DNA from: Clytia hemisphaerica
Lineage: Eukaryota; Cnidaria; Hydrozoa; Leptothecata; Clytiidae
Direction of reading: 5' to 3'
Assembly: GCA_902728285.1 (NCBI GenBank)
Contig: CACVBU010000004.1
Span: 175,130 to 239,129 of the forward strand
Length of the DNA: 64,000 bases
Under the pieces are notes generated by a model, which saw only the letters and a program-made list of their open reading frames with translations, was not told the DNA's origin and made no database searches. Shown piece by piece: positions 17,897 to 64,000 of this stretch. The translations under genes and the position numbers were made by a program. The first letter of the stretch is position 1; every line of letters starts with the position of its first letter.

Positions 17897-17935
17897 TTAT
17901 TTCCAAGAAAACATTGCTGAACATCTTGATCTGAC
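17897..17935 (-). CDS. Giant gene, exon Y: terminal exon of cytoplasmic tail
   Basis: Acceptor tttttcag, phase 0, encodes [12 protein letters not shown] then TAA. If the last intron is retained, the tail instead ends [11 protein letters not shown] and stop. The splice signals favour this exon, but it is short. Confidence 0.6.
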   Translation of the reverse strand, partial: VRSRCSAMFSWK

Positions 17936-20900
17936 CTGAAAAAATAAATGAAATGTAACATGATTAAGATTTTAAGGCAAAAACACCAAAAAATTGATTT
18001 TTCCTATCCTATGTTTTCATTCCAAAAAGTTTGGCTTTTCCTGAAAAAATATTTTAAAATCTTTTCCGCAAAGAAACCAATAAAGCCAAGGCGGTCATAT
18101 TCTGGAGGCTAAAGCACTTTTTATTTCCAAATCAGATTCTTTGATCAAGATTCAAAAACCTCCTTTGGGTTCTGGCTAATTTTAAAAGACCCAGTGGACT
18201 ATTTACAAACCCCCTTTGATTTTCCAGAGAACTCATTTGACAGAAATCAAGATCTCCTCAAAATGTCAGTAGTGCCGGTTTATGTGGAATAGTCTATATT
18301 TTTATGAACGAACAAGAGAGTATCCTTACCGGTGGTTCATTCATATTCGATGTTGCCTCTTTCATCCTCCATCTTTTCTTATAATTTCTCCACATTAAGT
18401 ACAAGGCAAGCGAGACAAGAATCAACGTCACCACAAGTGTTATGATAGTGATTAGATGTAAAACACGACGTGTTGTTCTCCCACTGCGCATGTGCGGATG
18501 AATGTTGTTTCTGGTTGTCAAGGTATGGTTGCCATGGTGAACAGGTATTGTTTTGTTTATTAGTTCTTCGTTGCCTAGTAACAAAAAAGATGCTTACGGT
18601 TAGCTCTCGATGACTCAAATTGGAATATTACATATAAGTGTTTCGCGAGGGTTTCACATTGACGGACAACTTGGTTCAAATAAACGGCGAGGGTCCAAAA
18701 TCTATGCTTAAAGTTGTTGCGTCCTTCATAGCCAAGGTTCTAGGCTCTTAGTCGATAAAGATATGCTCCCCTTTTCCGAAGATCTTTGGTAATCCCAAGA
18801 CAATAAAAATATTTTGTTAGCATCTACGTGTCAGTAAGCTATAACAAGAGGTCTTTTCGTCTAAATTTTTTGCAAAATCGAAGATTCTGGGCGAATGTAA
18901 ATATTTGTTTTTTTTTGCATTTCAAGTTCCGTCTGACAGGGAAAACTTTGCACTGCACAGCACTGCAATGTATTTTAATGAGACTTGGATTCTGATTCAT
19001 ATAAACTTTCTAAAGCTATATTCTGTCAAATATCAAACGAATGACTTACGACGTTTACAGGTCACGTGATCAATTGATGACAAATTGAACCCTGGGTTAC
19101 ACGAACAAAAATATGAGCCCTGGGTGTTAGTGCAGTTATGTTCACATTGATGACTTCCCATGGTACATTCATCAATGTCTACGAGAAAGAATTTAAAATG
19201 AGTAAAGAAGTAGGTTATCGTAAAAGGTTTGAACTTTTTCTCAGACTTAGAAGAAACTGGTAGCTTATTTCAACCCTTGCTCAAAACAGGGAGACTTAAA
19301 TGGCTCAAGTAATACAGAATAAAATAAAGAATTCACAAGACCTTTTTGGTTAACTCAAAAAAAGATTTCCATTGGTGTGGAATCTAAAACCACTGTTTTT
19401 AGCTGAGGCCCAATGATCATTTTGGAAGGTGTTTACGGAAGATGTCTCTACCGAAAAAAAGCTGGCCATGTAATTGAAACACTCTGATCTAGATAAACAG
19501 CAGGTCCCAAAAAAATCCTCATAATTTATGCCAAATTTCATGACTTTCATACTTGATTATTTTAATCTCAAAAACCTATTCAATCGTCTTTGGAATTGAA
19601 TATCTATTGTTTGAGCAGAAAATTTTAATCTTATTTTAATCATTCTAAGCCCAATTTAGACCCGGGGGGGGGGCACTGGGTTTGCGGACTGACGGTATGT
19701 GCGGGCCAAAAATTGGCTTTTAAAATTGCACCCTTACAGTGCAGCAAAAATCAGTGAAAATCATACCCTTAGAGTGCATTTTCCCCCAAATTTTCGATCC
19801 CTTTCGTGCAAAAAATGGTCAAAATTCTAGCATTTTTGGTCAAAATATCTAGATTTTTCAAGAATTTTCTGAAATTTCTACCCTTACAGTGCATCTCTAG
19901 TTTTTCCGACCCTTACAGTGCATTTTAAACATATTGGAAAAGGTACCCTTAGGACCCGCACATACCCGTCGATCCTTTTGCCCAGCTGCCCCCCCGGGAA
20001 TTTAGATAATGAAATGTGATGATTTAGCTTTACATAAAAATTTGTTCGTTCACACACTGTAGACAATCAAGCAGCCGTAGTTTACCTTTACATATTTTGT
20101 TATCTTCTTGCAGCTGGTAACCATGACGACAGCCACACGTGTAACTTCCCTCAGTGTTCCAACAGAAGTGATCACAATCATTGAACATCTCACATTCGTT
20201 CACATCTACGAAAAACCGAGAGAAAAATTTATTGGTAAGAATTACTTTGTATATAATCACCAGGCTCATTAAAGGAGTGTGTTTGAACAATAAGAATCCG
20301 CCTTTTACCCTCAAAATAATCATTGATTCTCAGTATTTTTTACGCTTAAACTTTCGCGATTTTCGCAAATTTTTGGCACTTTAGTGATCTCGAAAAATTT
20401 TTGAAAAAGACGCTGACTCGCGAACTTTAACCAACGCGAAAATCTTCAGATTCGCAATTCCACCATTTACCGTGTTATGTTAGAAGTCAAAATATTAAAC
20501 ATTGAACCAATTAGAATTTGATATACCTTGGCACGTGCTTTGATCAGCCAATAAGGTGTAGCCTTGATAACAAAAGCATTCGAAACCACCATAGGTGTTT
20601 GTACAGAGATGTGAGCAATTATGTTTGCCCGTCACACATTCATCAACGTCATTGACCAAGAGATAACCAGAGGCTGTGTCTGTACCTCCAACGTTGCCAG
20701 AGATGCACGTGTACTTGCCTGGGAAGGAAATTGAAATAGTCATCACACGGTATTAATTAAAAAAAAATCAGAAAGCATTAAAAAGAAAAGAAAGGTGTAA
20801 TTGAATAGCGACGAAGTTCAAAATTTTTATCCCAGTAATAATCAACATGCGAGTTTTATTTTTACTGAAATTGTTTGAATAGGACATGAAACTGTCATTG

Positions 20901-23900: not shown

Positions 23901-26900
23901 ACATCTTGGACCTCCGTGTAGGAGGGTGATACAAAAATGCTCACAACCGTATTTTGTTGAACTACACTCAGTGAAATCTGCGAAGGAAAATTTAGGGAAA
24001 GTAATTGTTATTGAGTTTGATGTGGCGGGCGAAAGATGAAAACCATATTTTTCTTTTGTATGGTAATAGTAGCCAAGCCAAAATCTGTTACTTTAAACAA
24101 TTATATTACCAAAAGTTATTGTTCCAAGGTATCGAGATATTATACAGTTCACTCTCGATAATTCGAAATAAAGAAAGTAATTTTTACTGTTTTTTTTCCT
24201 TGACAGGGACTAAGTACTAGTTAGGATTATACCTAGAAGGTTTGAATAATAGAAGTTCGAATTAGGGAGAGTCTACCGTAGTCAATGAAACAAAAGAAAT
24301 ATCAGACCATACCTTTATCATCACTCAATGATTTGATCACATTTGAATCCACATCGCTCAGAGGGAAATAGTATCTTTCTGTCGGTTGTGGCAATCGTTC
24401 TTGCGTTTTCTCGAACTGGTCCAATACCGCATCTGGTACGTTTCCACGTGTAAAACCAGGACTGTCTATTCCGGAACCTGATCCTGATTCAACTTGATCT
24501 TCAACGAATTCGTCATTTTCTTTTGACGGCTGATTTGAATTGTCCATTGTTTTCTTACTCAATTTAACATTAATGCTGGGTTTGTCTGTCATACTAGAAT
24601 TTCTAAAAGTTGAATTTGTTAGTGGTACAGTATAGTTATGTTTAATGAAATCAACACTGATGATGTCAACTTTTGGTGGCTTCGTTCGGACCACGAATGC
24701 AATGACCGGGTTTAGAAAGAAATTTGGAGCAGGAAACGTCTGGCACGTTTGACGACTAAAGCATTGAAGTGTGTAGCAACGTCTCCCGACCATGTAAGCG
24801 ACGTCGCACAGTTTATCTAGACAGCAGTATTTGACACACGACGGTATATCATCGACATCAGAAAGTTCACCGTGGTCGGTAAAAATGCCGGCTTTCATTC
24901 CGGCAACGAAACGGTGGTCGGTTAGAGTTCCGTTAGAGCGGCATGTTTCAGTTTTATTGACAGTTGATTCTGGCGTTATTGAGGAAATGTCAATACTGAC
25001 GTTTTTAGGTATTTCTGTTGTCGTTGTTAGGGGTGTGGTTGCTAAGTTGGTCGTTGCAAGGGTCGTTGTCACGGTACTTGTTGTAGTTGTTGGAGTAGAA
25101 GTGGTCGTTGTCGTTGTTTGTAGGGTCGTATCTGGGATGATTTCAGGCCGTTGAGTGTTTAGGAAAGCAGCTCCTTTAAAGGCGTTTTGTTCTGACGGGA
25201 AAAGCGACCAACCGTTTCTAACGACGTAACCGAGGCTTTTTGACGGCGTCGAAATGCGCGCTTGACATATATTTTGATTCAAACACAGTACAGCGTAACA
25301 CGTCTTGCCTTCCGTATACGCAACAGTACAATCGGGAACACGACAACATTCGCTAACACATTCTTGTATTGTAGAGACATTACCAAGAATTTTGGATGGT
25401 CCCGATTGAATACCCCCGTTCAATTCAACACCGGCCAATATGAATGATGGAGAACACCATGAAGTTACCCCGTTTTGTGGTCGTAAAACCGGGGGTATGG
25501 TATCACTGATAGGTTTCTGTAGTTTTCCATTGTCGGTTAAGGACTCTTGTAAGAGAACTGGGACGGGCAGTGTTGGTGATATCTTAGGATTTAGTGGAAG
25601 TGCAGTGGACGTTGATGACGTGTGAGAATCTTCATCTTCCGTTTCGTCATCTGAGGTAAAAGGGAAGAAATTGTGGATGAAAATGAATCAAAGCTGTTTT
25701 ACCCATTACGTATTTTCAAAAGAAGCCTCAAAAGAAGCGTGCACCATAAAAAGAAGCCCCCGTAACAGTGCACGAAAGCATCAAATACCCCCGTAACAGT
25801 ACGCGCAACATCAAAAGAAGCCCCCGTAATAGTGCGAGAAAGCATCAAATACCCCTGTAACAGTGCGCGCAACATCAAAAGAAGCCCCCGTTAACAGTGC
25901 GCGAAAACATCAAAAATTTATTTTATTTATTTGTTCTTTATTTAACGTTGGTAATAAAAAAAAAATAGTTACAAGTACTAATTAAATCCAACATGACATT
26001 CGAATATTTACTATATAGTAAATAATATTTTAAAATTTAAAAATACTAGAATATAGAACAGAGTTTGCATGAACAATAGATTTTGGCCTTGATAATTTTT
26101 CTTTTAAATTCAGCCAAAGATTCAATAGTTTTGAATTCTAACGGTAGTCTATTCCAGGCTTGGCCAGCTCGGAAATTAAAGGAATTCAAGCAAACTGTGT
26201 TCCTGGGAAGTGGAAGTCTAATTTGAGCGCCTCTTCGAAGACGAGGACGTTCGTTAGAATTGTCGTCCCCGTTTTCATTTACATCTTCATCCGTATCTAA
26301 ATGACTTTGGATGAATTCAAATTGGTCCCAGCCTAATTTATTGCCGATTTTATTGACGCTTTTATAAACTTCCACAAGCATAAACTGGAGATTTTTAGTA
26401 TGGATTGACTCACATTTAGCTTTCTTCAAAAGTTCATCATAGTTAAGATTGATAGAATTTTGCTTAGCCTTGAGGGCCCGACAATGAGTTTCGTTAAGAA
26501 GGTTGTGAGCCAATTTACTACAAAACAATCCAGATGAGAGGACAATATCTAAAAGCAGATAAAATAAAACTATTAAATAATAAATCTGCTTGCTCTTGGT
26601 TTAAATATGCTTAATTCTAAAAAGTTTTGGGTCTTCTGTGCAGCTTTTTTGCAGATGTCCTGTACGTGATTATAAAAAGTGAGGCCACTGTCGATAGTTA
26701 CTCCAAGCAGTTTCACGCTCTCGGAAGACTCTAATGTAATATTTCCAACATTGAAAACTATATTTGCATTCTTTGTGCCTGGAAACAACACCTGAAACTT
26801 CTCTGGATTTGCAACAAGGGAGTTGTGTTTAAACCAAGCTAGAATGATTTCTAGGTCTAGAATTAAAGCTTCGAGGGCCTCATCTAGAGACGAAGCACTT

Positions 26901-53900: not shown

Positions 53901-56900
53901 TCTCAACGACGCCCTCATCTGACCAACCGTCTGTTTTCAACACGACATCCAACACAGTTTGTCCAGGTTGACATTCTGGTTTCGAACTTAGTGTCTGTAT
54001 CTGACGTTTTGTGCTCTTCTCATCTTCGCTGTTGGAGATTCTGCTGAAAGCGTCGGCAATGATGTCATCAGTATTATCCTTGTTTGAACGATTCTCAGTT
54101 CTCTTTGTACTGTTTGTATGTCCAGCTCCTTCGATCTTTTCACCTTTAGAACCTTCTTTTAACGGCGATTTTTCAGTTGTTCTTAAATGGTCTTTGTCCT
54201 TAAATTCTGTTTCCGACGAAAGCTTCAAGAACTGGTTAACGTCTCCTAGGCTAGAATCGTGTTTATCTTTCTGTGACTTTCTAGATTCATGGTTGATATC
54301 TTTAGCTGCTGGTGATTTCAGAAAGTCATCAAATTCGTCTAATCCTGGCGAGGAAGATGTGATGTTTTTATTCTTTGCATGGGTTTCAGACCCATGCATG
54401 TCTTTGGTATCGCTTTTTTGAGAACTTTCTGTCGAATCTTTTGTTGGCTCCAGAAAAATCAAAATCGGAGATGCAGTCGTTTTCGTCTTTTTCACCTCAT
54501 TTTCGCGCGCTTTTAATTTGGCTCGTGCCAGACTCTTATTGGCGTTTTCAGTGTTTTTATTGTTGTCGCCAATGAGCTGTATGACGTCTAATGCATTCTG
54601 GGTATCGTTCAAAGATTGTCGATCTGAAATTTCAGTTTTCTTGCCAACCGTGTGTTGTCTCGGATGCTTCAAATCAATGGGAAAATATTCATCTTCAAGC
54701 TTCTTCGTGTCAATGTCTTCTTGTATAGTTGTTGAACTCGGCGCATCGATTTTTGTATTGTTGCCAAGCGTGTCCATGATTTTATCAGGAGATAAATCAT
54801 AAGAATTGTCATCAGTCACGATTGATAATTCTGGTATGCGCGACGAGCCGTCCAGCATTGAATGTTGCATTTCTTGAATAGGTGGATCACTGCTGTTCAC
54901 AATATGATGGAGATAAAAGGGATCCATATTCTCCATAAGTTTAGACGTGGGTGGGGTTTCAATATCACCTGATTCCTTTGTTTCCATTTCTCCGAGCTGG
55001 GAAGAGATATCTTTGGTCACATGATTTGAACGCACCTCGACATTTTTTCCCTTTGAGGTATTCTTGTCTTTGGCTAATGTATTTGATGCAAGGTTTTTAG
55101 TTGTTTCCGATAGTATATTCGTGATAACCTTTGAAGGTTCAGAGGCTTGATACCTTGAGTTCTGTTCTTCATTCTTGTTGTTACCCAAATCTCTAAGACT
55201 TTGAATGAGGTCTTGGCCATTCCCAAAGCGCTTGTCTTCCGATTTTTTCAAAACTTTTGTTTTAGAACCATTGATTCGTCCTTGACTGTTATCTTTGTTC
55301 TTTTTGATCGGTTCCGAAGCTGTAAAACTAGAGTTGGCCGTTACCATTTCTTTATTCATTGGTCGAACGATTGTCAAATGTGGTTTGAAATAATGGACTT
55401 CAGCATCTTTAGTTTGACAAGATTCATAGTCACGGCACCGAAACAAATAACAATGAACCAGCACCATAGCAATGTTACATTCGTTCCATTTACAACATTC
55501 TTCTCGACATTGGTCGATATGCTTCACATGCTTCAATCCTTTGAACCAACCTCCTCCCCAGCCCTTTTTCAACACGGTGTCCCATAAAACGCCAGTATCT
55601 TGAGGACATGAAATGTTCCCTGAATGGTTGACTGCATTAGATGCTTCATCAGCAAAACCAGAGCTATCTTTACCAGAATCACTCATCAAGTTTCTGTCTT
55701 CAAAAGCAGATTTTTCGTCTGAATCCTGGTCATGGTTCTTTTGGTGATATTCTTGCTCTGGCTGTTTGTTCCGATCCTCAGGGGGTATGAAATTCTCTCC
55801 AGTTTTGCCAACGCCTTTGCTTTTTTTCCCACCCACATTGTTAAAATCATGGATTAGCGATGGACTTTCTTTCATCTTAGCCCATCGATCACCAATATAA
55901 GCTATAACTGAAGATTTTTTCATGACATGTTTATTTCTAATTGGTCGGCATTCTTTGTAACTATAGCAACTTACAATATAACAATGGTTTCCACGGAGAT
56001 AAGCTAACGTACATTGTGTAGTGAAGCAACACTTCTGGATACAAGATTCGATACTTTTTACGTGCCCTTGATACTTAACTTTCCCGCTTCGTAAACCATT
56101 GTTTAGATGATGATTTTCCAAAATAGAAACATCTTTCAAGCATAGATTGTTCTTTGATCGGAGTTCAATTTCAGATTCATTTTCTTTCCCCATGATGTTC
56201 CCTTTTTCTGAATTTTTAGCCATCCTTCCTCTTTGTTTTGATAGCGTTTTTCCATCAAAACCATTTCCTGGTTGATCAGCGCCTTCCGGTAACCTCTGTT
56301 TCAGAACGGTCATTACCTTATTCAGTTTCCCTTGGAGTTCTTTAAAATCCTCACCAACATTAGATTGTAGATTGTCACTTTCCTGTACTCGTTGTATTTT
56401 CTGAACAATCCCCATCAAACCATTCAACTTTTTCAAAGCTCTGGTTAAAGTCCCATTTACACTTCGTTCAGTGTCTTGGTCTTTCGCCATAAATTGACCA
56501 ACTGTTTCCAACTGTTTATCAACCAGCTTTTGACCGCGCGTCTCTTTTTCCATCAAACCCTGGAGCCTAGTAACCAGATTCTCAATCTGTCTAAAATCTT
56601 GAGAATCTGAATTTTTGATAGACTTAACATCTTCCATCAATCGATTCATCTCAGGACCATCCAAGATATCTCTGGCTATGTTAGATAAGCTACTTAGGGA
56701 TTCTCTTGGCACATTTGATACTTTTAAGTCAATATCTCTTGGCGATTCTCTAGCCATATTCGCTTCCTTCTTTGTCGATTTTTCATTTTTTGACAGCCTT
56801 GAACCTAAATCCCTTGATTTTTTTGGAGTGGGTCTCCTTGAAGGTGATAAAGCCTGTAATGTGATAGTGCCCTGACCGGGAGTTGCTGGATAAGCATACC

Positions 56901-59900
56901 AATCTCTCTTCTTATTCCCATTAATGTCAGTTCTATCGGTTCTATCGTCTGGTAAATTGTTCTGTTGGTTTTCAGTTGAATTCCTAACAAAGGTGTTAAA
57001 AGGTTTGTCATTGGTCTTGGCATCTTTGTCTCCACCTGGGCCATTGTCTCTTGATTTTTTAACAGTTTGCATCCCATTGAAGATGTCTTGTCTCTCACGG
57101 CTTGGTTTCTCTGTATTGAAGGTCGGTTTTCCCGTATTGGAAATCTTATCCTTTTTCCTCAATGATTCAAACTGAAGAACATTCTCTTTTGGATCTTGAC
57201 TTTCTGTCACCCATGAAATTTTCACACCTCCTTTCTTTTGGCTATTGCCTGTATCCACTTTATCGTTCTTTACATTAATGACCAATTCAAACGGAGCAGG
57301 CGTTGTTGTAATATCATTGGTGGAGATCAACACGTGATCAATAATACTGCTGTTTAATTGGCTCATTGTGTTGTTTATTTTTTCTAGAGGTAAATCATTG
57401 GTCGATTTAGTCACGTGGCTTCTGTTCTCACTTTCTGATTGGCCATCCAGTGATGATGCTTTTGTTGTCTCATTCTCTGTTATCAAGTTGAATTTCTCCG
57501 TCAAATTCTTTTTGGCTGAACTGCTTAATGTACTAAATTTCACAGTTTTTGATGTAGGTTTCAAAGTTGGCATTTCTTTGCTTTGAGTGACCTTTACTGG
57601 GACCAGATTTGAAGTGATTGTTATCAATTTTTCTGTACCTTCCTGAGATTGTGTTTTTGTTTGAAGCTGGTGCATCTTTTTAGTTGGATAAAAATCCTTC
57701 ACTAGGTTGAGAGCCATAGAGGATTTGTTTTGCTTCGTGAAATCATTCATTCCATTGAAAATCAGTTGGTTCTGACGCGGTACCATTTTGAAGCCCAAAT
57801 TCTCATCTGCAGCTTTTGGTTGGCTCTTCTCTACGTCATCTATGATGTGATTGGTTGATGTATTCGATTTAGATAAACTGAGTGGTTTATTAGAATCGTC
57901 TAGCATGTCCGTGTTGATTTGTTTTAACGATGATGGTGTCGTTTTGATCGTTGTTTTTGGAGATTCTGTAGTACTGGCCGTAGTATCTGCATTTCCTTTA
58001 CTGGTTCTTGGATAAAAAAGCGTAGTTAAGAATGGAGAAGCTGTTGTGATAAAGCCCCAGTCAGACTGCGTGTTGATTGAAGAATTGATGACATCCTTGC
58101 TAATATTCTTCGCCATTGAGTCAGGATTAGCAGACTCTGTTTCAATAGAGGTGTTGTTATCTTCGTTGGCATTCTTGGTTATAAAGCCTGCCTCAGATTG
58201 TGTTTTGATGGGATTGTTGGTACGAATTGATTTTGGGTTCTTAGTTTGGTTGTCTTTGATTCCTGGCAATTTCACCTGCTCTGGTGACTCGTTGTCATGG
58301 TGAATCTTTCGTTTGGCAGGGATGTCTCCTCGTCTCTTGTTACCATCATCTAAAAGTGAAATCATTTAACGAAAAAAGAGGCTTAACACGTTGTCTCTGA
58401 TTCTGGTGGGGTTTTTTATTTTTTATCCTTCTGAGTAATGGAATGAGACTTTCAGAGGTGAACGTACGAGATTCGACTTCAGTACAAAACATAAATGGTT
58501 TTCAATTATTTACCTATAACCTCTATATCCTCGATTCAGAATAAAATTCTATGAAACGAATCAAGAATTTCTTCTAAAAATCTTGCATTCTCACCACCGT
58601 AAAAGTTTTCCCTCGTGAGTATTTGGAAAAAGGACAATAATAATGACATACCGACATCCAATAGTGCAATCCTAATGTATGCGATCTTGGAATTAATCGC
58701 ATATTTGCCTTTATCTTTTACAGGATCTTCTACGTCACAAAGATCACGTGATTTACATCCAACCGTAAAGCACAGCTCGTTCACCATCATTAATGCTACG
58801 TCACAGTCGTCATGGAGACAGCACCGTTGGATACATGAGTCGAAATCGGTGACGTCACTTTGATGGTCGAATCGACCGGCAAATGAGCCACCGTGGAGAG
58901 TCTGGTTCTGGAAGATTTGGTAAGGTGTACACTCTGTTTTATTAGTTTCACTATTGGCTAATGTCTGATTGGACAGTACTTTACTTGACGTATTCAATCC
59001 TGTTGGTTCGGTCTTGTTCGTTGTTAAAGTGCTGTCACTTGTCAAATTTCCAAGCATGGTTTGCGAAGTTGGTATTGAATCTTCATTGACTTCACTCTTT
59101 GTGTTCATCGGATTCGTCGTCTTCATTGAAGCACTGGTCTCGTTAGCTATCGTTGGTGATTGTGAAGTTGAATGTTGGTAATGCTGCTCATTGGTAGAGT
59201 TCAGATTATCATTGTCAGTGCTCTTGAAAGCCGTTATCAGAGACATCTGTCCAGGTCCGTCATTTGTAGTTTGATTGGCAACTTGTTGGTGACTCTTCAC
59301 TTTTTGGAAATCGTTTTGAAGTGGAAGACCAAAAGATTTGTTCATTGTCTCGTGTTTGCTGTTTTTGATTGTTAAGTTATTTTTAAACGGTAAGCCGCTA
59401 GCAGTATTTGAATAATCTTTGTTACTTTTTTTGTTGTTGTTTAAAAGCTCCAAAATATGTTCTGGCGTTAGACCTTCTAGGCCGTACTGGGTCATTTGGT
59501 CAGCTGAAGTATTCCCAATTTTCAAATCCAGTTTAGGAGCTGTCTTTGAGTTTTCAACCTTCAGATCATTGTGACTTTCCTCTGACATTTCTAAAGAACT
59601 GTTCACCACGCTTGTATTTGATTTGTTTGTGTTATTTTGAGTTTTCTTATCAACTTTCATCACTGGTTGATCGATCTCTATTGACTTCAAGGTTGTTTTA
59701 TTTGATTCTTTATCCACGATTTGTTCTGTTGAATTCTGTTCAGGTTTCACCATCAGTTTCATTGATTGAAATTCAGTAGATTTATTTTGATTATCTGTGA
59801 GCTGCTTTGGTGTAGGTTTATCATCTTTGAGATTTTTTCGACCTTTTGATTTTATGTTCGTTCCATTCTCTCGATGAATTGGTGAGGCTAAATCATTCAC

Positions 59901-62900
59901 AATGCTCTCCTTTGGTTCTAAACCTGATAACAAATCTTGTTTCTTCTCCAAACTTTCATCAAGCACCCGCTTCCTGCTATTCAAATAAACAAGCTCTGGT
60001 CTCAGGTCTTCTGTATTCTGAGCCGGCACCATGGAGCATAGGTCTTTACTAAAACACTTCAATGTGAAACAAGATCCACCGATAACGAGTGCAACATCAC
60101 ATGCTTTTGATCGACAACAAAACTGGATGCATGTGTTTAGATCTGGTACTAAACCGTGCTGCACATAAATACCAGCATGGAATCCTCCCTTAACAGTCAT
60201 ACCATACTCGACATCTGAGTGCTGGCAAATGGATACTGTATCCCTGGAATCGGTTGCACCCAACCCTTTTTTGCCATTGCCACTGAATCTGGACAATCCA
60301 TTATCATCGGAATAAAGACCTCCTGGCTCTCTAGTGTCTTCGGAATCGGCCATCGGGGGTCCTTGACGTACATCTGAAATGAAAGTCACAGCTTCGCTAT
60401 TTGCTTCTGATTCTATCAACTGACACGTGTACTGGTTAAAGCAGATGATACTGTAACATTTATTATTGATGGTCATGGCTAAATCACAAGATCGATTCTG
60501 ACAACAATACTCAATACATTCTTCGAACCTCATAACAGGACCTTTATCTATGAAAACACCAGCCTCACTACCACCTTTAAGAGTCTTACCAATGGTTCGA
60601 TCAGAAGCTAAACAGACTCTAGTGTTTGAATGAGGTTTAGGTGGTTCAAGCATCTTCAGAGCATTGCTAGATTGATGGAATATAGGTTGGTTTGATTCAT
60701 CTTTGGTATTGTTTGGTGTTTGAATCTGTTTTATAGCTCTCTCTTGGGCCTGGTTTGTCTTTTTCTTGTCGTCTTTATTCTCCATCATAAACGAAATAGT
60801 TCTTTGTGGATGATCGCTCATTTTTATTGGCTCAATCTTGGTATCCTCGCTTTTCATTGGTGGATTCTTTGACTGTGTGTCTGCCATTGGTCGATTCTTG
60901 TCTTTGACGTCTGTCATTGGTTCTTTTTTAGACTCAATGTCACTGATTGGCTGGGTTGGTACCTTCTTTGTTTTAATTCGTTCAATATGATTATCTTCCT
61001 CTTGATTGGTGGGCTCTAACAATTGATCCATGACGTCATCTGGCTGTGTTTTCATTGGCTCTTCAAAGATTTGATGAAGGATTTCCTGGTCGTTGATTGG
61101 CTCGTTTTCTGAATCTTTAAATTTGATTGGCTGTCTGTTGCCTATTGTTTTGATTCTTTGGACAGCTTCTTCAATTGGAGTACCATGCTCTTTGATCCAG
61201 TCAGTAATGCCATGTGCTATTTGTCGGTAGCGATTATCCTGGTTATCACGGTTCACGTTCGTTTGTGAATCTTCAGACGGCCGTGCGGTTGTTGCAGTAG
61301 TTTGAGCAGACCGGTGCTCAGGTGTAATAAAACCCACACTGTGGCCTTCTTCTCTTAAATTACGTAATGCTTCAAGAATTTGATCTTCGGGATTTTTCTG
61401 TTCCGTTATTTCGTCTAAACCTGGTATATCAGCTATATGAAGCTTTGGTTTTTCCGTAGTAGAGCTTGTTACAATCTGCTGGTCATGAGGTTCCTTTGTC
61501 TCTGGATCAAACCTGTTACCACTTTTACTGTCTGCCGAATTGATAGATTCTCTTGGAAACGAAACCTCTGTTTCATTTCCTTTCACTGTTACAGAAAGCT
61601 CATCAACTGGTGTTTTTACGACAGCAGTTCTGATTGGTTCTTTTTGATCATGTGACAACTCTACTAGCTCAACCATTGGTCGTTGGGATTGATTCCGCTT
61701 GTCAGCGTCAACGTCCTTGAATCTGTTTGTGATCAAGTCTTTCGATTTCAACGATTCTGTCATTTTAGATGTTGGTGATTGAGTCTCCGTCATCATATCT
61801 TTGATAACTGATTTAAGCCTCGCCAAGATATCTTTAGGATTGTGTTTTAGATCCTCTCTTGAGTCTTTTTGCTCCAATGTTGGTGGTACTTCTGGATCTC
61901 CAGACTGCAGAACTCTATTGGCTACTGTAGATTCTCCCGGTACAATTACACCTTTAGGCTTTGACATTGCACCAACCTTTCCTTCCCGGGATACATTGAG
62001 ATGCCTAATTTTTACAATAATGGGGACATCATCAAGAACCTTGGATAGAGGCTCCGTTTGGCATTTCAGTGGATCTACACAATTCACCGTGTAACAGAAT
62101 CCTTTGAAAAACAGCGCATGCGTGCAATTGTTAAGTGCACAACACTTCGTGACACATCCATCAATGTTGTGCTCTGATAAAATGGTTGTGAAAACACCTG
62201 CATATAACCCACCTTTGAATCGATGGTTAAGAGTGAATGATTCTCTACGGCAGTTCTTCTCTTTTGATTTGAAAACACGCTTTGAAGGTGTGACGTCATG
62301 ATATACTGAGTTTGGTTTCAGGGTGAATCCATAACCTGATTTCCCCGATGATGTGAATCCGATGTCGTTAATCATGTTATGTAATCTAGCAAAATCGTTA
62401 AGTTCATCATTATCGTTTTTTGAAAATTTTCCCGATTTGGAATTTCGAAACCTGGTATTGTGTCTTCTGTTTTGCAACTTAGATGACTTTTCAAGGTTGT
62501 TTGAATTCTGGAATCTGGTGTTTGACTTTTCTCCTGGTAACTTTGGTGATTGGTAGTTATATTCACTCCCAAATGTATTATGGGTGAATGGTTTCCCGAT
62601 CAGACCTGGTAACTTGTCTACGTCCGAATCTGACTGAGGTATTATATTCGAGTGAGCTTTTCTGACTGGATGTTGGCCAAATCCAACTGATGAATAACCA
62701 GAAGGATTTAGTTTGAACGTTGTATCTTGTGGTAGAAAGTGGCTTGAGTAGTCGTATGGGTACGAGGAAACACTTTGAGATTGATGATATTTTTCTATTT
62801 TTCCAGTCTTTTGCTTTCTCTGTTCATCTTCTGGAGTCAGGTTTGGATTCACATGATAGTCGAATGGTTGGGTATCCATGGAATCTAATTCCTTGATGTT

Positions 62901-64000
62901 ATTTGAATTTTCACCATTCAAGTTTAATAATTGGTGCAGATTCTTAATTTTGTTGAGATTCAATCCCGGTTGATTTTCGTCCTTCATGTGTTCCAAGGCT
63001 TTGATATATGCTTTTTGATTCGCCTCTGTCCTGTCAATAGCTGTTCTTGTATTTGGTGTCACATCCAACCCAGCGCCTTTCTTTGGCACTTGTTCAACTC
63101 TTGATGGTTCAACTGAACCAATTGTGTCTCCAACCTCAAAACTTTGTTGTCTTTTGCTTGGTTTGACTTCAAGCTTGGGGCTTTTCATGATTACCTGGCT
63201 TGTATTTGGAGTAGAAGGTGTTTGGACCGAATTAAAAGTGTTTCCAACATTTAATCCTTGATGTTTTTTGGTTGCCATTAACGGTTGAATGTATTCTTCC
63301 TCCTCATTGTCAGTATCTTCATCAGGGAGATTCTCTGGTTTTAATTTTCTTATTAAACCAGTCTTTGACTTCGGGACCTCTTCTACCTTCTGTCCTTTCA
63401 CTATACCGCCAACTTCACCGAGAGAAGAATTGAACGTCTTGACCAAACCACTTGTCTCCTCTAAAATCTTCCTCAATCTTTGTTTTGTTTCGTCTGGCAA
63501 AAATGCTTCATCGTGAGTATCTAACTCCCTTATACTGTCAGTTCTCTTTGGTAACACTCTTTGCAGATCTTCAACAGCATTTAAGACATTCCCAAGAGCT
63601 TTCTTTCGAATCTTCTGATGTTTCTCTCCATGACCAACTGTATTGAGGTTCTCAACCGTTTTCAAGACTTTTTTCAAGGCGCCTTCAAACATCGAATTGG
63701 TGATGTTCTTTAGAGAATCACGCCTGGTGAAAGGTTGTAAGATCTTGTTCGACTGTTGTAGCATGTTTTCCAGGTAATCTTCATCTTGATCTTCATCAGA
63801 GTTGGTTGAATCTAGAGCGCCTGGCTCCGATCCTTTCGGTTTTTCCATCAAGTGATTACCAAGACCTTTGATATTATAACCTTCAACATCAGAATTTTCT
63901 CCTTGGTTGGTTTCGGATACACTTTTGTAGGAACTATTAATATCTTTCGATTCTACTCCCTTTGTATTCTTTTGAACGCCATTTGCTTTTGGGAAGTCTA
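17897..64000 (-). CDS. Giant multi-MANSC / LamG / EGF / Ig single-pass membrane protein (25 exons; N-terminus outside window)
   Basis: Twenty-five - strand exons join without a frame break to encode at least 8,294 residues; the first exon is still open at 64,000. Order: 11 MANSC-like domains in two giant exons, coiled-coil/Thr-rich stalk, LamG, MANSC, MANSC, LamG, four MANSC, three EGF, Ig, three calcium-binding EGF, transmembrane helix and short basic tail. The MANSC-like unit has eight cysteines: C, then about 30 residues with GG..AG.F.D.G, then C-x3-CC-x4-C-(D)-x-A, C-(Y/F)-x-V-x-C, and a last C. MANSC modules occur in HAI-1, LRP11 and KIAA0319. The extracellular placement, Thr-rich linkers and an SGSGSG site suggest a mucin- or proteoglycan-like surface protein; that role is inference. 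Ectodomain introns are all phase 1. Exon junctions rest on frame and splice signals only. Confidence 0.85.
18330..18574 (-). CDS. Giant gene, exon X: transmembrane helix
   Basis: Acceptor ttactag, donor gtaagg; enters in phase 1 and leaves in phase 0. A juxtamembrane stretch is followed by the hydrophobic [20 protein letters not shown] and LYLMW, then the stop-transfer basic run [10 protein letters not shown]. It gives a type I membrane topology with a very short cytoplasmic tail. Confidence 0.9.
19050..19178 (-). CDS. Giant gene, exon W: calcium-binding EGF domain
   Basis: Acceptor ctcgtag, donor gtaagt, phase 1-1, 43 codons. [16 protein letters not shown] and [12 protein letters not shown]. 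The last base, C, makes Arg with GC of the next exon. Confidence 0.85.
19661..19998. mobile_element. GC-ended hAT-like MITE (copy 2)
   Basis: Perfect 8-bp duplication aatttaga at 19653-19660 and 19999-20006. Ends cccgggggggggg / gcccccccggg and the inner pair ggtatgtgcggg / cccgcacatacc are inverted. Four or more cccttacagtgca words inside. Same family as 3987-4296. In the intron between exons V and W. Confidence 0.75.
20086..20205 (-). CDS. Giant gene, exon V: calcium-binding EGF domain
   Basis: Acceptor ttcgtag, donor gtaaac, phase 1-1, 40 codons. [15 protein letters not shown] and [12 protein letters not shown]. Confidence 0.9.
20527..20718 (-). CDS. Giant gene, exon U: end of Ig domain and cbEGF
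   Basis: Acceptor ttcccag, donor gtatat, phase 1-1, 64 codons. KYTC completes the Ig hallmark DTGKYTC; the cb[15 protein letters not shown]...[12 protein letters not shown] follows. Confidence 0.9.
21085..21294 (-). CDS. Giant gene, exon T: first part of Ig domain
   Basis: Acceptor cttttag, donor gtaagg, phase 1-1, 70 codons. [20 protein letters not shown], then LQC and VWTF: strands A-C of an I-set-like Ig with the core Cys and Trp. The exon ends within the D-x-G-x-Y-x-C motif, after DTG. Confidence 0.9.
21375..21620. mobile_element. CACGTTTTTT MITE, right end degraded
   Basis: Starts tacacgttttttataagagc and repeats the aagaacat / ggcttaaaactcaaaaag words of its family. In the intron between exons S and T. 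Confidence 0.5.
21671..21745 (-). CDS. Giant gene, exon S: 75-bp linker exon
   Basis: Acceptor ttttcag, donor gtaaac, phase 1-1, 25 codons ([20 protein letters not shown]). The split codon ends with A, read as Ile with TT of exon T. Confidence 0.65.
22050..23013. mobile_element. TGGACCTACC element (copy 2)
   Basis: Ends tggacctacc (22050) and ggtaggtcca (to 23013). Shares gacggagcc, aaatttgggccaaaaac and ggttttttggactt with the 15273-17287 copy, and carries its own internal repeats. In the intron between exons R and S. Confidence 0.6.
23082..23234 (-). CDS. Giant gene, exon R: calcium-binding EGF domain
   Basis: Acceptor tgatag, donor gtaagg, phase 1-1, 51 codons. DLDEC start and [12 protein letters not shown], the hydroxylation consensus of cbEGF. 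Confidence 0.9.
23723..23977 (-). CDS. Giant gene, exon Q: two EGF-like domains
   Basis: Acceptor tcgcag, donor gtgaga, phase 1-1, 85 codons. Two six-cysteine EGF units (start [16 protein letters not shown]; second [15 protein letters not shown]). Neither has the calcium-binding D-x-(D/N)-E-C start. Confidence 0.85.
24313..25650 (-). CDS. Giant gene, exon P: MANSC-like 16 and 17, mucin linker, candidate GAG site
   Basis: Acceptor cctcag, donor gtatgg, phase 1-1, 446 codons. MANSC-like domains at about 25222-25456 and 24694-24942 flank a Thr-rich linker ([20 protein letters not shown]). The acidic stretch [17 protein letters not shown] near 24465-24520 fits the consensus for glycosaminoglycan attachment (acidic residues before Ser-Gly repeats). 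The end is acidic, leading to the EGF exons. Confidence 0.9.
25737..25917. repeat. Short tandem repeat (cccccgtaacagtgcgcg)
   Basis: Alternating copies of aagaagcccccgtaacagtg and catcaaatacccccgtaaca, about 5-6 units, directly abutting the LINE tail. The words resemble the cccttacagtgca words of the GC-ended MITEs. Confidence 0.6.
26046..26528 (-). pseudogene. LINE ORF2 C-terminal fragment
   Basis: 160 codons in another frame, matching the usual C-terminal region of such ORFs ([39 protein letters not shown]). An acidic insert [18 protein letters not shown] is unusual. Separated from the RT frame by about 45 bp with stops. Confidence 0.7.
26573..28123 (-). pseudogene. Non-LTR retrotransposon reverse transcriptase fragment
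   Basis: 516-codon frame with the reverse transcriptase landmarks [59 protein letters not shown], and the catalytic FADD (as [12 protein letters not shown]), then the LLGVTID region. The order and spacing fit jockey/CR1-type LINEs. It starts inside the linker after the missing endonuclease and ends at a premature stop, so it is broken. Confidence 0.85.
28408..28863 (-). CDS. Giant gene, exon O: MANSC-like domain 15
   Basis: Acceptor tccatag, donor gtatat, phase 1-1, 152 codons. A Pro-rich start, a basic helix, then a MANSC-like domain at about 28463-28703 ([20 protein letters not shown]) and an acidic end (ETEEDNDE). Confidence 0.9.
29239..30282 (-). CDS. Giant gene, exon N: rest of LamG-like 2, mucin linker, MANSC-like 14
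   Basis: Acceptor attttcag, donor gtaagg, phase 1-1, 348 codons. LamG-like strands [28 protein letters not shown] and [13 protein letters not shown] lie at about 29780-30280. A Thr-rich mucin-like linker (about 29530-29680) precedes a MANSC-like domain at about 29258-29503 ([20 protein letters not shown]). Confidence 0.9.
30488..30721 (-). CDS. Giant gene, exon M: Pro/Thr linker and start of second LamG-like domain
   Basis: Acceptor taatcag, donor gtaaat, phase 1-1, 78 codons. A basic Pro/Thr-rich linker, then [20 protein letters not shown], which parallels the IHYGFEQ start of the LamG in exon J. The domain continues in exon N. Confidence 0.85.
31095..31274 (-). CDS. Giant gene, exon L: second half of MANSC-like domain 13
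   Basis: Acceptor catgtag, donor gtaagt, phase 1-1, 60 codons, split codon base A. Carries [20 protein letters not shown] and [12 protein letters not shown], completing the domain begun in exon K. Confidence 0.9.
31342..31434 (-). pseudogene. Degenerate duplicate of MANSC half-exon L (or cassette exon)
   Basis: Acceptor ttttttag and donor gtaaga bound a 93-bp phase 1-1 frame reading (G)[18 protein letters not shown] and on. It matches the start of exon L ([22 protein letters not shown]) closely at the DNA level apart from a 9-bp deletion. The second half is degraded (ICFRVDT) and lacks the last cysteines of the domain. It is either a dying tandem duplicate or a rarely used exon. Confidence 0.6.
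31480..31870. repeat. Degenerate CACAGACCCG repeat element
   Basis: cacagacccgggagg...agccagtggggat and a local duplication of ggttcccagtgggtctgtgg. Related to the elements at 44438-44627 and 45942-46196. In the intron between exons K and L. Confidence 0.4.
31897..32097 (-). CDS. Giant gene, exon K: Thr-rich linker and first half of MANSC-like domain 13
   Basis: Acceptor ttttcag, donor gtaatt, phase 1-1, 67 codons. [16 protein letters not shown] linker, then [20 protein letters not shown] and FTDKG, where the intron falls. This is the only MANSC-like unit of the 17 that is split by an intron. Confidence 0.85.
32675..33727 (-). CDS. Giant gene, exon J: LamG-like domain plus MANSC-like domain 12
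   Basis: Acceptor attttag, donor gtaccc, phase 1-1, 351 codons. About 33085-33720 encodes a concanavalin-A/laminin-G type fold: [18 protein letters not shown] start, [29 protein letters not shown] and the end [13 protein letters not shown]. The MANSC-like domain follows at about 32703-32942 ([20 protein letters not shown]). LamG folds usually bind glycans or proteins; the ligand is unknown. Confidence 0.9.
34373..34580. repeat. Direct repeat pair
   Basis: gaaagcgtaacagcgtaaaa and the following ~35 bases occur at 34373 and again about 145 bp later (34516); a diverged fragment (tttcttacaatgttatgct) is near 35620. Confidence 0.6.
34622..35553. mobile_element. CACGTTTTTT MITE, interrupted copy
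   Basis: Left part 34622-34677 (tacacgttttcttttgtaag) and right part 35389-35553 (ending with the atataaaaaacgtata type end) rejoin at a TTAA where another element has inserted. Confidence 0.6.
34678..35388. mobile_element. TTAA-flanked element nested in a MITE (Kolobok/piggyBac-like)
   Basis: Perfect 16-bp TIRs gggctctgaccatagt and actatggtcagagccc, flanked by TTAA at 34674-34677 and 35389-35392. A small acidic 66-codon ORF (34712-34912, + strand) is inside, but no transposase domain is recognisable. Confidence 0.8.
35750..36045. repeat. gtgggacg repeat cluster
   Basis: Many gtgggacg words and the inverse cgtcccac; cctccttcata.actatatt occurs at both ends (about 35757 and 36027). Origin unknown. 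Confidence 0.4.
36302..36390 (-). other. Possible alternative first exon / signal peptide with a 1-nt frameshift
   Basis: On the - strand a strongly hydrophobic stretch, [16 protein letters not shown], ends at a perfect donor gtaagt in phase 1, exactly what exon J accepts. The only nearby ATG (36388-36390) is one base out of frame, with six A after it (36382-36387); one fewer A would make a standard signal peptide. No phase-1 acceptor lies upstream, so it cannot be an internal exon. It is either a base error, a broken allele or chance. Confidence 0.35.
36391..37160. other. Intronic, no feature seen
   Basis: AT-rich intron between exon I and exon J. No exon or repeat recognised. Confidence 0.4.
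37161..37525. mobile_element. CACGTTTTTT MITE, diverged long copy
   Basis: Begins atacacgtttcttttattag and ends with the inverted taataaaaaaaacgtgtat. The aagaacat and gaggct words are kept. Confidence 0.6.
37583..39121 (-). CDS. Giant gene, exon I: 513-codon disordered charged exon
   Basis: Acceptor tatcatag, donor gtaagg, phase 1-1. A coiled-coil start ([20 protein letters not shown]) is followed by a long acidic and basic disordered region. Near the C-terminal end three VKG tripeptides occur in [10 protein letters not shown]. No cysteine domain. Together with exons C-H it forms the stalk between the MANSC array and the LamG region. Confidence 0.85.
39170..39306. mobile_element. Small TIR element
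   Basis: ccctgtcctagtgac at the left is mirrored by gtcacttagacagggg at the right, with inner pair ttcaccgggt / ccagggtgga less exact. In the intron between exons H and I. Confidence 0.4.
40094..40351. mobile_element. CACGTTTTTT MITE, full-length copy (opposite orientation)
   Basis: tacacgttttttttataaga at the left and ttataaaaaaaaaaacgtgta at the right. The interior reads as the complement of the 13570-13804 copy. Confidence 0.65.
40389..40568 (-). CDS. Giant gene, exon H: short helix in Thr-rich linker
   Basis: Acceptor attttcag, donor gtaaag, phase 1-1, 60 codons. Helix [20 protein letters not shown] between Thr/Ser-rich ends. Confidence 0.75.
40651..40803. mobile_element. CACGTTTTTT MITE, short copy
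   Basis: ttacacgcttttttataagg at the left and gctcttataaaaaaaagtgt at the right; internal sequence shortened. In the intron between exons G and H. Confidence 0.5.
41071..41268 (-). CDS. Giant gene, exon G: coiled-coil exon
   Basis: Acceptor cattttag, donor gtaaac, phase 1-1, 66 codons. Coiled coil [20 protein letters not shown], then a run of mixed Glu and Lys that could form a single alpha-helix. Confidence 0.8.
41529..41624 (-). CDS. Giant gene, exon F: 96-bp coiled-coil exon
   Basis: Acceptor ctatttag, donor gtttga, phase 1-1, 32 codons. The heptad-like sequence [20 protein letters not shown] makes a coding role convincing despite the size. Confidence 0.75.
42203..43775. repeat. Thirteen-copy ~121-bp tandem array
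   Basis: The word gtggaaacaattt starts units at 42206, 42329, 42450, 42571, 42692, 42816, 42937, 43059, 43180, 43311, 43442, 43564 and 43688. Periods are 121-124 bp, with two units lengthened to 131 by a gcacgcattg insertion. Each contains ctaccgggctaccttaatgg. Confidence 0.9.
43855..44830 (+). ncRNA. Possible spliced noncoding transcript inside the TIR element
   Basis: Acceptor-like ttttttttcag near 43854, donor gtaaga near 43929, acceptor ctacag near 44101, another ttttttcag near 44746, then AATAAA near 44819. The stretches between have no long ORF. Suggestive only, no homology seen. Confidence 0.2.
44438..44627. repeat. Small inverted-ended repeat (tgtcacag family)
   Basis: tgtcacagagccgctgggac near 44438 and caccggggctgtgagaca near 44610 are roughly inverted. 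Related to 45942-46196 and 31480-31870. Confidence 0.4.
45722..45844 (-). CDS. Giant gene, exon E: short Thr-rich mucin-like exon
   Basis: Acceptor ttataaaag, donor gtatga, phase 1-1, 41 codons. The second half is almost all Thr, Ser and Pro ([13 protein letters not shown]), a likely O-glycosylation patch. A TIR element lies in the next intron. Confidence 0.7.
45942..46196. repeat. Small inverted-ended repeat (tgtcacag family), second copy
   Basis: tgtcacagacccgctgggac at the left, caccgggttgcgggaccgtg then agaca at the right. In the intron between exons D and E. Confidence 0.4.
46225..46689 (-). CDS. Giant gene, exon D: Thr-rich linker plus coiled coil
   Basis: Acceptor tgaacag, donor gtacag, phase 1-1, 155 codons. 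Thr/Pro-rich start, then a coiled coil ([20 protein letters not shown]) and the end motif [12 protein letters not shown], which resembles [12 protein letters not shown] in exon G. Confidence 0.8.
47043..47498 (-). CDS. Giant gene, exon C: Pro/Gln/Thr-rich linker
   Basis: Acceptor ttattcag, donor gtgagt, phase 1 at both ends, 152 codons. Pro- and Gln-rich, with a short helix [16 protein letters not shown]. No domain recognised; it looks like stalk sequence. Confidence 0.8.
47793..58349 (-). CDS. Giant gene, exon B: 10.6-kb exon with seven MANSC-like domains
   Basis: A single 10,557-bp exon, about 3,519 codons, acceptor cttttag and donor gtatga, phase 1 at both ends. MANSC-like domains lie at about 55890-56142, 55368-55607, 53742-53973, 51396-51636, 50780-51017, 48962-49207 and 48618-48864. 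Between them are coiled-coil segments (about 56280-56640 and 49300-49900), a Gln/Thr-rich stretch (about 51650-52150) and long charged disordered runs. The C-terminal end (about 48010-48260) has five short repeats around F-x-D-(L/I)-(G/S). The domain at 48618 has a shortened final loop (CKSGYC). All seven keep eight cysteines. Confidence 0.9.
58652..64000 (-). CDS. Giant gene, exon A: four MANSC-like domains (5' end outside window)
   Basis: Open from the window edge to the donor gtatgt; at least 5,349 bp without an intron. The first ~530 codons are hydrophilic and disordered with short helices. MANSC-like domains lie at about 62010-62252, 60380-60615, 59983-60227 and 58668-58934, each with the eight-cysteine pattern (for example [20 protein letters not shown]). 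Linkers are rich in K, E, N, S and T with many N-x-S/T sites, suggesting heavy glycosylation. A decapeptide repeat sits at about 60805-60955. Ends in phase 1, the split codon giving Asp with exon B. The frame continues upstream of 63851, so no start codon is assigned here. Confidence 0.9.

Follow-up and report, generated by a model that had tools for sequence, protein, structure and literature searches.

miR-2022 and miR-2030 are reported to be the only two miRNAs common to all cnidarians investigated (PMC9923473). They are cited by Praher et al. as the only two then known across Cnidaria, and a paper on Hydractinia adds miR-2025 to the pan-cnidarian set. In Nematostella, NVE19315, termed 2030T, is reported to be cleaved, with the miRNA site lying in the coding sequence, and the miR-2030/2030T pair is described as conserved between anemones and stony corals (PMC7935066). 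The same source dates the anthozoan split to 500-650 Ma and describes slicing after extensive pairing as frequent among cnidarian miRNAs (PMC7935066). A second report gives LOC5501396 as the Nematostella target of miR-2030 (PMC8141815) and, because LOC5501396 and NVE19315 are each reported as a miR-2030 target, we infer that the two names denote one gene. Surm et al. report miR-2030 in an intron of NVE19315; combined with the target reported by Praher et al., this makes the Nematostella miRNA intronic to the gene that it targets. For Hydra, a differing miR-2030 expression and a weak homolog are reported, and another target has been suggested there (PMC8141815). The mature coral miR-2030 sequence is available in print (PMC3962355), and cnidarian miRNAs have been proposed to arise from their targets (PMC7713132).

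Within the accessible parts of the literature searched, no statement was found that puts miR-2030 inside its target or assigns 2030T to the MANSC proteins; the founding paper of 2014 may state the host relation. That paper, by Moran et al., reportedly described 2030T. None of the terms MANSC, MANEC and KIAA0319 turned up in a word search of PMC12549020 (main text), which treats the Nematostella matrisome.

Here, we analyze a stretch of 64,000 nucleotides from Clytia hemisphaerica (the window, 175130-239129 of contig C3; coordinates below are those of the window unless a contig is named). Most of it is taken up by one giant gene whose likely anthozoan orthologs include 2030T, and whose predicted transcript carries three miR-2030-like hairpins in an intron as well as a candidate miR-2030 site in an exon.

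Results

One giant gene on the minus strand

The gene model was built on the window plus 40 kb of the same contig, from splice scores and exon phases with the reverse-transcriptase region masked. It describes a single gene, on the minus strand throughout, with 28 predicted exons and 11,116 residues, running for 56,380 bases from signal peptide to stop with a CDS of 33,351 nt (Table 1). Twenty-five of the 28 exons lie wholly or partly inside the window and supply about 8,290 aa of the protein. The predicted 5′ end is 10.4 kb beyond the window, in a signal-peptide exon at about 249,525 on the contig that was the sole candidate printed by a scan for a hydrophobic start. Two giant open frames on the minus strand, one of 3,552 aa (47707-58365) and one of 4,386 aa that extends past the window edge, connect in frame with each other and with the small exons that follow as far as 18017. 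The introns, 27 in number, are all of the GT-AG type; 26 have phase 1 and the final one phase 0. Phase 1 is the usual intron state of shuffled extracellular modules, and the uniformity seen here is partly built in because phase 1 was used to choose among the candidates for several small exons. Some of exons 6-12 (39784-47498) are weakly supported. A coding model lost most EGF exons at both penalties because it had been trained mainly on linkers, and these exons were refilled from phase-1 candidates.

The transcript-derived TCONS_00000040-protein (P0003, EukProt) is identical to the gene model at 1315 of 1322 positions. The sole gap consists of seven residues at one splice donor, and exon 14 is thus 21 nt longer; with exon 14 lengthened in this way, all eight junctions agree between the inside of exon 14 and the inside of exon 22. 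Transcript coverage is limited to exons 14-22, and introns 1-13 and 22-27 are predicted. P0003 stops right after EGF 3 in exon 22, ahead of the Ig domain and the membrane span, and because it ends there an alternative form without a membrane span, maybe secreted, is possible.

An earlier note on this DNA, made from its letters, had joined 25 exons in one frame into a giant single-pass membrane protein of at least 8,294 residues with 17 MANSC-like modules, LamG, EGF and Ig domains, ending at 17897, and had proposed profile searches and transcript sequencing as checks. Its 25 exons reappear here among the 28, with GT-AG joins, and its length agrees with the window's share of the longer whole model. 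The one-gene model and the one hydrophobic span support the single-pass membrane protein. Transcript evidence bears out exons 14-22 with their eight junctions and leaves the rest of the gene without transcript. The gene end has to be moved: the most likely stop is at 18017, because the C-terminus it yields (EKPNFLE) is like those of Anthozoa (KKSLFSW(T/M/L)E). The three miR-2030-like hairpins of intron 13 and the miR-2030 site of exon 5 were absent from that note.

Table 1 Features of the giant gene, with window coordinates
Feature	Position	Strand	Content	Basis or remark
Exon 4, part in window	58652..64000	-	MANSC 3-6, long K/S/T/N-rich linkers	Whole exon 12,987 nt; open frame 4,386 aa; PF23597 in 4 stretches (P0001); module list
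Exon 5	47793..58349	-	MANSC 7-13	10,557 nt; 3,552-aa open frame; PF23597 in 7 stretches
Candidate miR-2030 target site	50980..51001	-	Codons of PVSYNVSL, module 11	In exon 5
Exon 6	47043-47498	-	Linker	Phase-1 splice candidate
Exon 7	46225-46689	-	Linker	Phase-1 splice candidate
Exon 8	45722-45844	-	Linker	From first model alone
Exon 9	41529-41624	-	Linker	Phase-1 splice candidate
Exon 10	41071-41268	-	Linker	Phase-1 splice candidate
Exon 11	40389-40568	-	Linker	Phase-1 splice candidate
Exon 12	39784-39861	-	Linker	From first model alone
Exon 13	37583..39121	-	Charged linker ahead of LamG 1	Open frame and splice scores
Intron 13, predicted	33728..37582	-	Houses three hairpins	GT-AG; junction outside transcript coverage
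Hairpin hp1	34361..34441	-	Pre-miR-2030-like	MFE -34.0 kcal/mol, z -8.61, 0/200 shuffles
Hairpin hp2	34506..34586	-	Pre-miR-2030-like; near-copy of hp1	MFE -34.5 kcal/mol, z -7.36, 0/200 shuffles
Hairpin hp3	35573..35655	-	Pre-miR-2030-like	MFE -33.7 kcal/mol, z -9.45, 0/200 shuffles
Exon 14	32675..33727	-	LamG 1, MANSC 14	PF13385 4.4e-16; PF23597 1.7e-11
Exon 14, 3′ end	32675	-	GT donor	Fixed by P0003
Exons 15 and 16	31897-32097, 31095-31274	-	MANSC 15, split by intron	Pfam (exon 16); P0003 junctions
Exons 17 and 18	30488-30721, 29239-30282	-	LamG 2, MANSC 16	PF13385 1.9e-18; P0003 junctions
Exon 19	28408..28863	-	MANSC 17	Pfam; P0003
Exon 20	24313..25650	-	MANSC 18 and 19, T-rich mucin-like linkers	Pfam 3.4e-20; P0003
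Exons 21 and 22	23723-23977, 23082-23234	-	EGF 1-3	Pfam; P0003 up to CQLII of exon 22
Exons 23 and 24	21085-21294, 20527-20718	-	Ig (I-set), EGF 4	Ig_3 3.8e-9 (exon 23); Cys pattern (EGF 4)
Exons 25 and 26	20086-20205, 19050-19178	-	EGF 5, EGF 6	Cys pattern (EGF 5); Pfam EGF_CA (exon 26)
Exon 27	18330..18574	-	Juxtamembrane stretch, single membrane span, basic tail	Hydrophobic run judged by eye; aligns with hydrophobic run of Montipora and Nematostella
Exon 28	18017..18040	-	Final codons EKPNFLE and stop	Splice candidate

Several other elements lie in or around the gene. An intron holds a LINE-like element with a reverse-transcriptase open frame on the minus strand (26573-28129; RVT_1, 1e-26). 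An automatic model that took three reverse-transcriptase pieces (26249-28125) as exons contained two stops and was dropped. Tandem arrays are found at 15411-16944 (period 498, 3.1 copies) and, in intron 8, at 42206-43767 (period 121 with 12.7 copies, or 243 with 6.3). Upstream of the giant gene is what we take, from its sequence, to be a Serinc-like gene.

MANSC modules and protein architecture

The predicted protein contains 19 MANSC/MANEC modules, two LamG, six EGF and one Ig domain, and one membrane span. A count by Cys motif places 17 of the modules in the window, as the earlier note had found, and an HMM trained on Clytia and Montipora modules recovers the same 19, which belong to its training set and so are not an independent confirmation. 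Module 1 is weak, with 27 bits from the trained HMM and 16.7 from Pfam, below the 27-bit cut-off. Eight Cys columns are invariant among 16 aligned modules (those of the 19 that lie in single window exons). Pfam ranks KIAA0319_N (PF23597) first and MANEC (PF07502) second for the modules: PF23597 matches the exon-5 frame at 1e-50 in seven stretches and PF07502 reaches 1.3e-19, the two being above cut-off in six and three, respectively, of eight exon-sized pieces. Comparison of the module profile with the PDB gave two sequences at an E value of 1 or lower, and each of them is human HAI-1 (E 0.0027 and 0.042). The Pfam and PDB matches together confirm the MANSC family, and the LamG, EGF and Ig domains are also above Pfam cut-offs. 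Matches of the modules to PAN_3 are weak and below cut-off, and no PKD domain was matched in the scanned pieces, which covered exons 2-7, 13-23, 26 and 27. N-glycosylation motifs number 155 in the 11,116 residues.

We are fairly confident, as part of one overall explanation, that the product is a type-I membrane glycoprotein of giant size, with disulfide-rich MANSC beads, putatively of the PAN/apple type, that are carried on long linkers and stand above a conserved LamG-MANSC2-LamG-MANSC4-EGF3-Ig-EGF3 stalk. Its signal-peptide-like start, N-glycosylation motifs, T-rich linkers, LamG and EGF domains and hydrophobic span near the end make it probable that the protein is an extended molecule at the surface or facing the matrix.

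MANSC is an expanded family in this species, with 58 genome-wide matches to PF23597 in the 417-Mb, 951-contig assembly. Further loci lie on C939, C300, C342, C8, C234 and C850, several with many modules, and on C822 MANSC exons form two clusters in mirror-image arrangement (at about 296-315 kb and 506-527 kb) whose scores largely match, which would fit an inverted duplication or a fold-back in the assembly. All these loci, those on C822 included, were set aside as candidate orthologs of the anthozoan genes on their MANSC content alone: they are mostly single modules in small exons, with exons of 475 and 485 aa holding three and two modules.

Orthologs in corals and anemones

Queried with the C-terminal part, LamG1 together with module 14, or the relative from Montipora, the databases returned three full-scale relatives, all named uncharacterized: Montipora foliosa (P0037; 5,252 aa), Oculina patagonica (P0043; isoform X2, 5,230 aa) and Nematostella vectensis LOC5501396 (P0044; 6,953 aa), the last of which we take to be NVE19315 and thus 2030T. 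P0003 aside, none of the other matches, among candidates limited in length and for the C-terminal query scored in part, had the MANSC family among its Pfam domains, a result that does not imply absence from Bilateria. MANSC modules number 19 in Clytia, 15 in Montipora, 15 in Oculina and 21 in Nematostella. The Montipora and Oculina models have a Clytia-like layout and end in KKSLFSWTE and KKSLFSWME, but are about half the Clytia length and have no signal peptide at the start (by eye); the Nematostella model, with the same C-terminal domain order, has more modules than the Clytia protein in a shorter chain. The earlier note had named no described protein with this layout; that it is undescribed anywhere is not supported, since the same C-terminal order is found in all three orthologs and the Nematostella gene is already in print as a miR-2030 target.

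After the linker, the order LamG-MANSC-MANSC-LamG-MANSC x4-EGF-Ig-EGF-hydrophobic span is followed by all four proteins. LamG1, LamG2 and Ig are in place in each anthozoan, and each Clytia LamG scores best with its equal-ranking counterpart in all three; an EGF pattern recovers six EGFs in three of the four proteins and five in Oculina. From LamG1 on, identity is 33.6% between Clytia and Montipora, 33.3% between Clytia and Nematostella and 48.2% between Montipora and Nematostella, and in the alignment of these three each of the 88 cysteines of Clytia is matched by a cysteine in both of the others. The lower identity of Clytia to the two hexacorals fits a position outside Hexacorallia, and its orthologs and miR-2030 mark it as a cnidarian. 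In a tree of 70 modules, Clytia modules 16, 17 and 11 group with anthozoan modules of matching position (86, 92 and 84% support, respectively). Clytia 18 pairs with its position match only jointly with Clytia 7 (76%), the pairing of Clytia 14, 15 and 19 with the modules expected from their position is not clean, and support is low at many of the deep nodes. The far C-terminus (18017-18040 in Clytia) is similar in the four orthologs, with SW-x-E in Anthozoa and NFLE here, which hints at a cytoplasmic partner. Judged from domain order, cysteines and module tree, and within the same overall explanation, the window gene is in all probability the medusozoan ortholog of anthozoan 2030T.

miR-2030-like hairpins of predicted intron 13

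A scan of the window for the 17-nt miR-2030 core, tolerating three mismatches at most, gave four occurrences where 0.32 would be expected, and four occurrences were found in 0 of 100 shuffles. Three of these are exact copies on the minus strand (34409-34425, 34554-34570 and 35623-35639), which is the gene strand, and they fall within intron 13 in the 5′ arms of three stable hairpins, hp1-hp3 (Table 1). The fourth is a two-mismatch copy on the plus strand (50981-50997) and is the complement of the exon-5 target site described below. The 5p arm of hp3 equals coral miR-2030 over its first 18 nt and those of hp1 and hp2 over the 17-nt core; hp1 and hp2 together form a 90-nt direct repeat (89%). 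The antisense strands fold well too (z -6.2 to -8.2), as expected because the hairpins are inverted repeats. Ranked by energy among non-overlapping windows of the intron, hp1-hp3 are 2nd, 4th and 6th, which counts against a self-targeting loop. No Rfam family was matched here, and viral contigs scanned for coral miR-2030 gave no match. From core identity and folding, the three hairpins are likely candidate copies of miR-2030.

A stronger inverted repeat of GTGGGACG-type units is present in the same intron at 35952-36032 (about -52 kcal/mol, or -56 with flanks), and has the look of a local palindrome rather than of a miRNA. Its presence counts against a self-targeting loop.

A candidate miR-2030 site in exon 5

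The arm shared by hp1 and hp2 (hp1/2) pairs with the exon-5 site through 19 Watson-Crick pairs and one G:U pair of 22, with mismatches at miRNA positions 5 and 6, whose adjacency is a point against a self-targeting loop. The hp3 arm has three mismatches (positions 1, 5 and 6), and coral miR-2030 has three mismatches plus two G:U pairs. For all three versions this is the best site in the whole CDS: the hp1/2 arm scores 2.5 mismatches here, and the second-best sites score 8.0 (hp1/2), 7.5 (hp3) and 6.5 (coral). Among 3000 letter-shuffled miRNAs, an equally good site was found for 0 (hp1/2), 1 (hp3) and 13 (coral). Only one of the 19 modules contains such a site, the others scoring 8.0-10.5, and the duplex energy with the window's own arms is 77-80% of that of a perfect site.

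The codons at the site were compared with synonymous draws in which the peptide PVSYNVSL was held fixed and the gene's own codon usage was followed (P = 7e-5 for hp1/2, 0.0014 for hp3 and 0.004 for coral miR-2030). The pairing of the actual codons with hp1/2 equals the best value among 100,000 draws. The codon wording, beyond the peptide, fits miR-2030; this supports function or a shared descent of miRNA and site, not function alone.

The anthozoan proteins were scanned at the protein level, so that their sites are deduced from peptides, not DNA. In all three, the best encodable site for coral miR-2030 was PISYNVTL, with one mismatch and ranking first among 20,838, 15,735 and 15,669 frame positions, and this peptide belongs to the module that groups with Clytia module 11 in the tree. 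The same codon-free scan of the Clytia protein gave PVSYNVSL as best, at 2.5, and control proteins gave 4.5, 2.5 (P0009) and 4.0; the Clytia codon-free score is not decisive alone because one of the three controls equals it.

Discussion

A predicted self-targeting loop and its possible age

Host and target of miR-2030 appear to be one gene in both cnidarian lineages, and from the hairpins and the site it is quite probable that in Clytia, too, the same gene serves as both. Upon transcription of the giant gene, the intron 13 hairpins would be freed from the pre-mRNA as miR-2030. The mature 5p arms would then guide Argonaute to the single highly complementary CDS site, in MANSC module 11 of the spliced mRNA, which would be cut there, as extensive pairing within the CDS leads to slicing. 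Through such a loop, a cell that transcribes the gene would keep the production of a giant and very costly protein in check. We infer the processing, the cleavage and the feedback role in Clytia, as well as the surface function of the protein, from sequence.

This self-control loop may be as old as Cnidaria. That an intronic miRNA has resided in one giant gene, and cut its mRNA, since before the split of Anthozoa and Medusozoa seems to us rather probable, with less assurance than for the loop in Clytia. To our knowledge, no self-targeting miRNA-host pair known in animals would then be older than that of miR-2030 and the giant gene. More boldly, miR-2030 itself could be derived from an inverted duplication of a MANSC-coding stretch of the gene, an idea suggested by the fact that the target site codes for a Y-N-V-T-L-like strand that recurs in the modules; visual comparison of hairpins and target shows no homology beyond the 22 nt.

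Alternative explanations

The hairpins could be true miR-2030 and the exon-5 site a leftover of descent or chance, with miR-2030 acting on other genes in Clytia. The mismatches at positions 5 and 6, the encodable site of equal quality in one control protein, and the differing expression and weak homolog reported for Hydra (PMC8141815) are all in keeping with this, yet the exon-5 codons reach the best pairing among the synonymous draws, none of the 3000 shuffles matches the hp1/2 site, and the site occupies the corresponding codons of the orthologous module. On this evidence a leftover site is unlikely.

Alternatively, the hairpins might have a cis effect: being cut out by the miRNA machinery, they would reduce the splicing of the host pre-mRNA, and the exon site would be inert. 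Their sense-strand, intronic position suits such an effect, but it would leave both the shared site and the codon fit unexplained, and we regard it as very improbable.

Just as little credence, or slightly less, is given to the view that the gene encodes a giant adhesion or glycan-presenting receptor and no regulatory RNA of its own: the signal-peptide-like start, the 155 N-glycosylation motifs, the LamG, EGF and Ig domains and the membrane span all speak for a receptor, but the hairpins and the site would go unexplained. It is hardly probable, finally, that the apparent giant is two or more genes or an assembly join, as the predicted 5′ exon and the introns without transcript support (1-13 and 22-27) might suggest, since single models in three anthozoans link N-terminal MANSC blocks with the LamG-to-membrane part and 26 of the 27 introns share phase 1.

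Significance

The predicted self-targeting of the giant gene by its own intronic miR-2030 bears on several questions. The target of miR-2030, so far an 'uncharacterized protein', is now identified as a giant MANSC protein, the candidate target site is extended from Anthozoa to a second cnidarian lineage, and miR-2030-like hairpins are seen inside their own predicted target in Clytia as well. If the loop is real, a self-limiting circuit would have been kept for more than 500 million years in a phylum with otherwise fast miRNA turnover, and the proposed origin of cnidarian miRNAs from their targets (PMC7713132) could be tested well on it. The giant protein, presumably located at the surface and shared by corals, anemones and Clytia, is, moreover, open to study in laboratory cnidarians.

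Comparison with known systems

The modules of the Clytia protein find their best Pfam family in the N-terminal domain of KIAA0319, and KIAA0319 and KIAA0319L (AAVR) have one module plus PKD repeats. The only PDB matches of the module profile are to the MANEC domain of human HAI-1 (SPINT1; 2msx/5h7v), which differs in that a single MANEC domain is combined with PKD-like, two Kunitz and LDLR-A domains, as described in PMC12940448. As a regulatory arrangement, the proposed loop is closest to miR-579/ZFR in human (PMC4370670) and miR-92/jigr1 in Drosophila (PMC4441384), where, as reported in these sources and as proposed here, an intragenic miRNA exerts negative feedback on its host. The candidate site in Clytia is highly complementary, lies in the CDS and is common to two cnidarian lineages.
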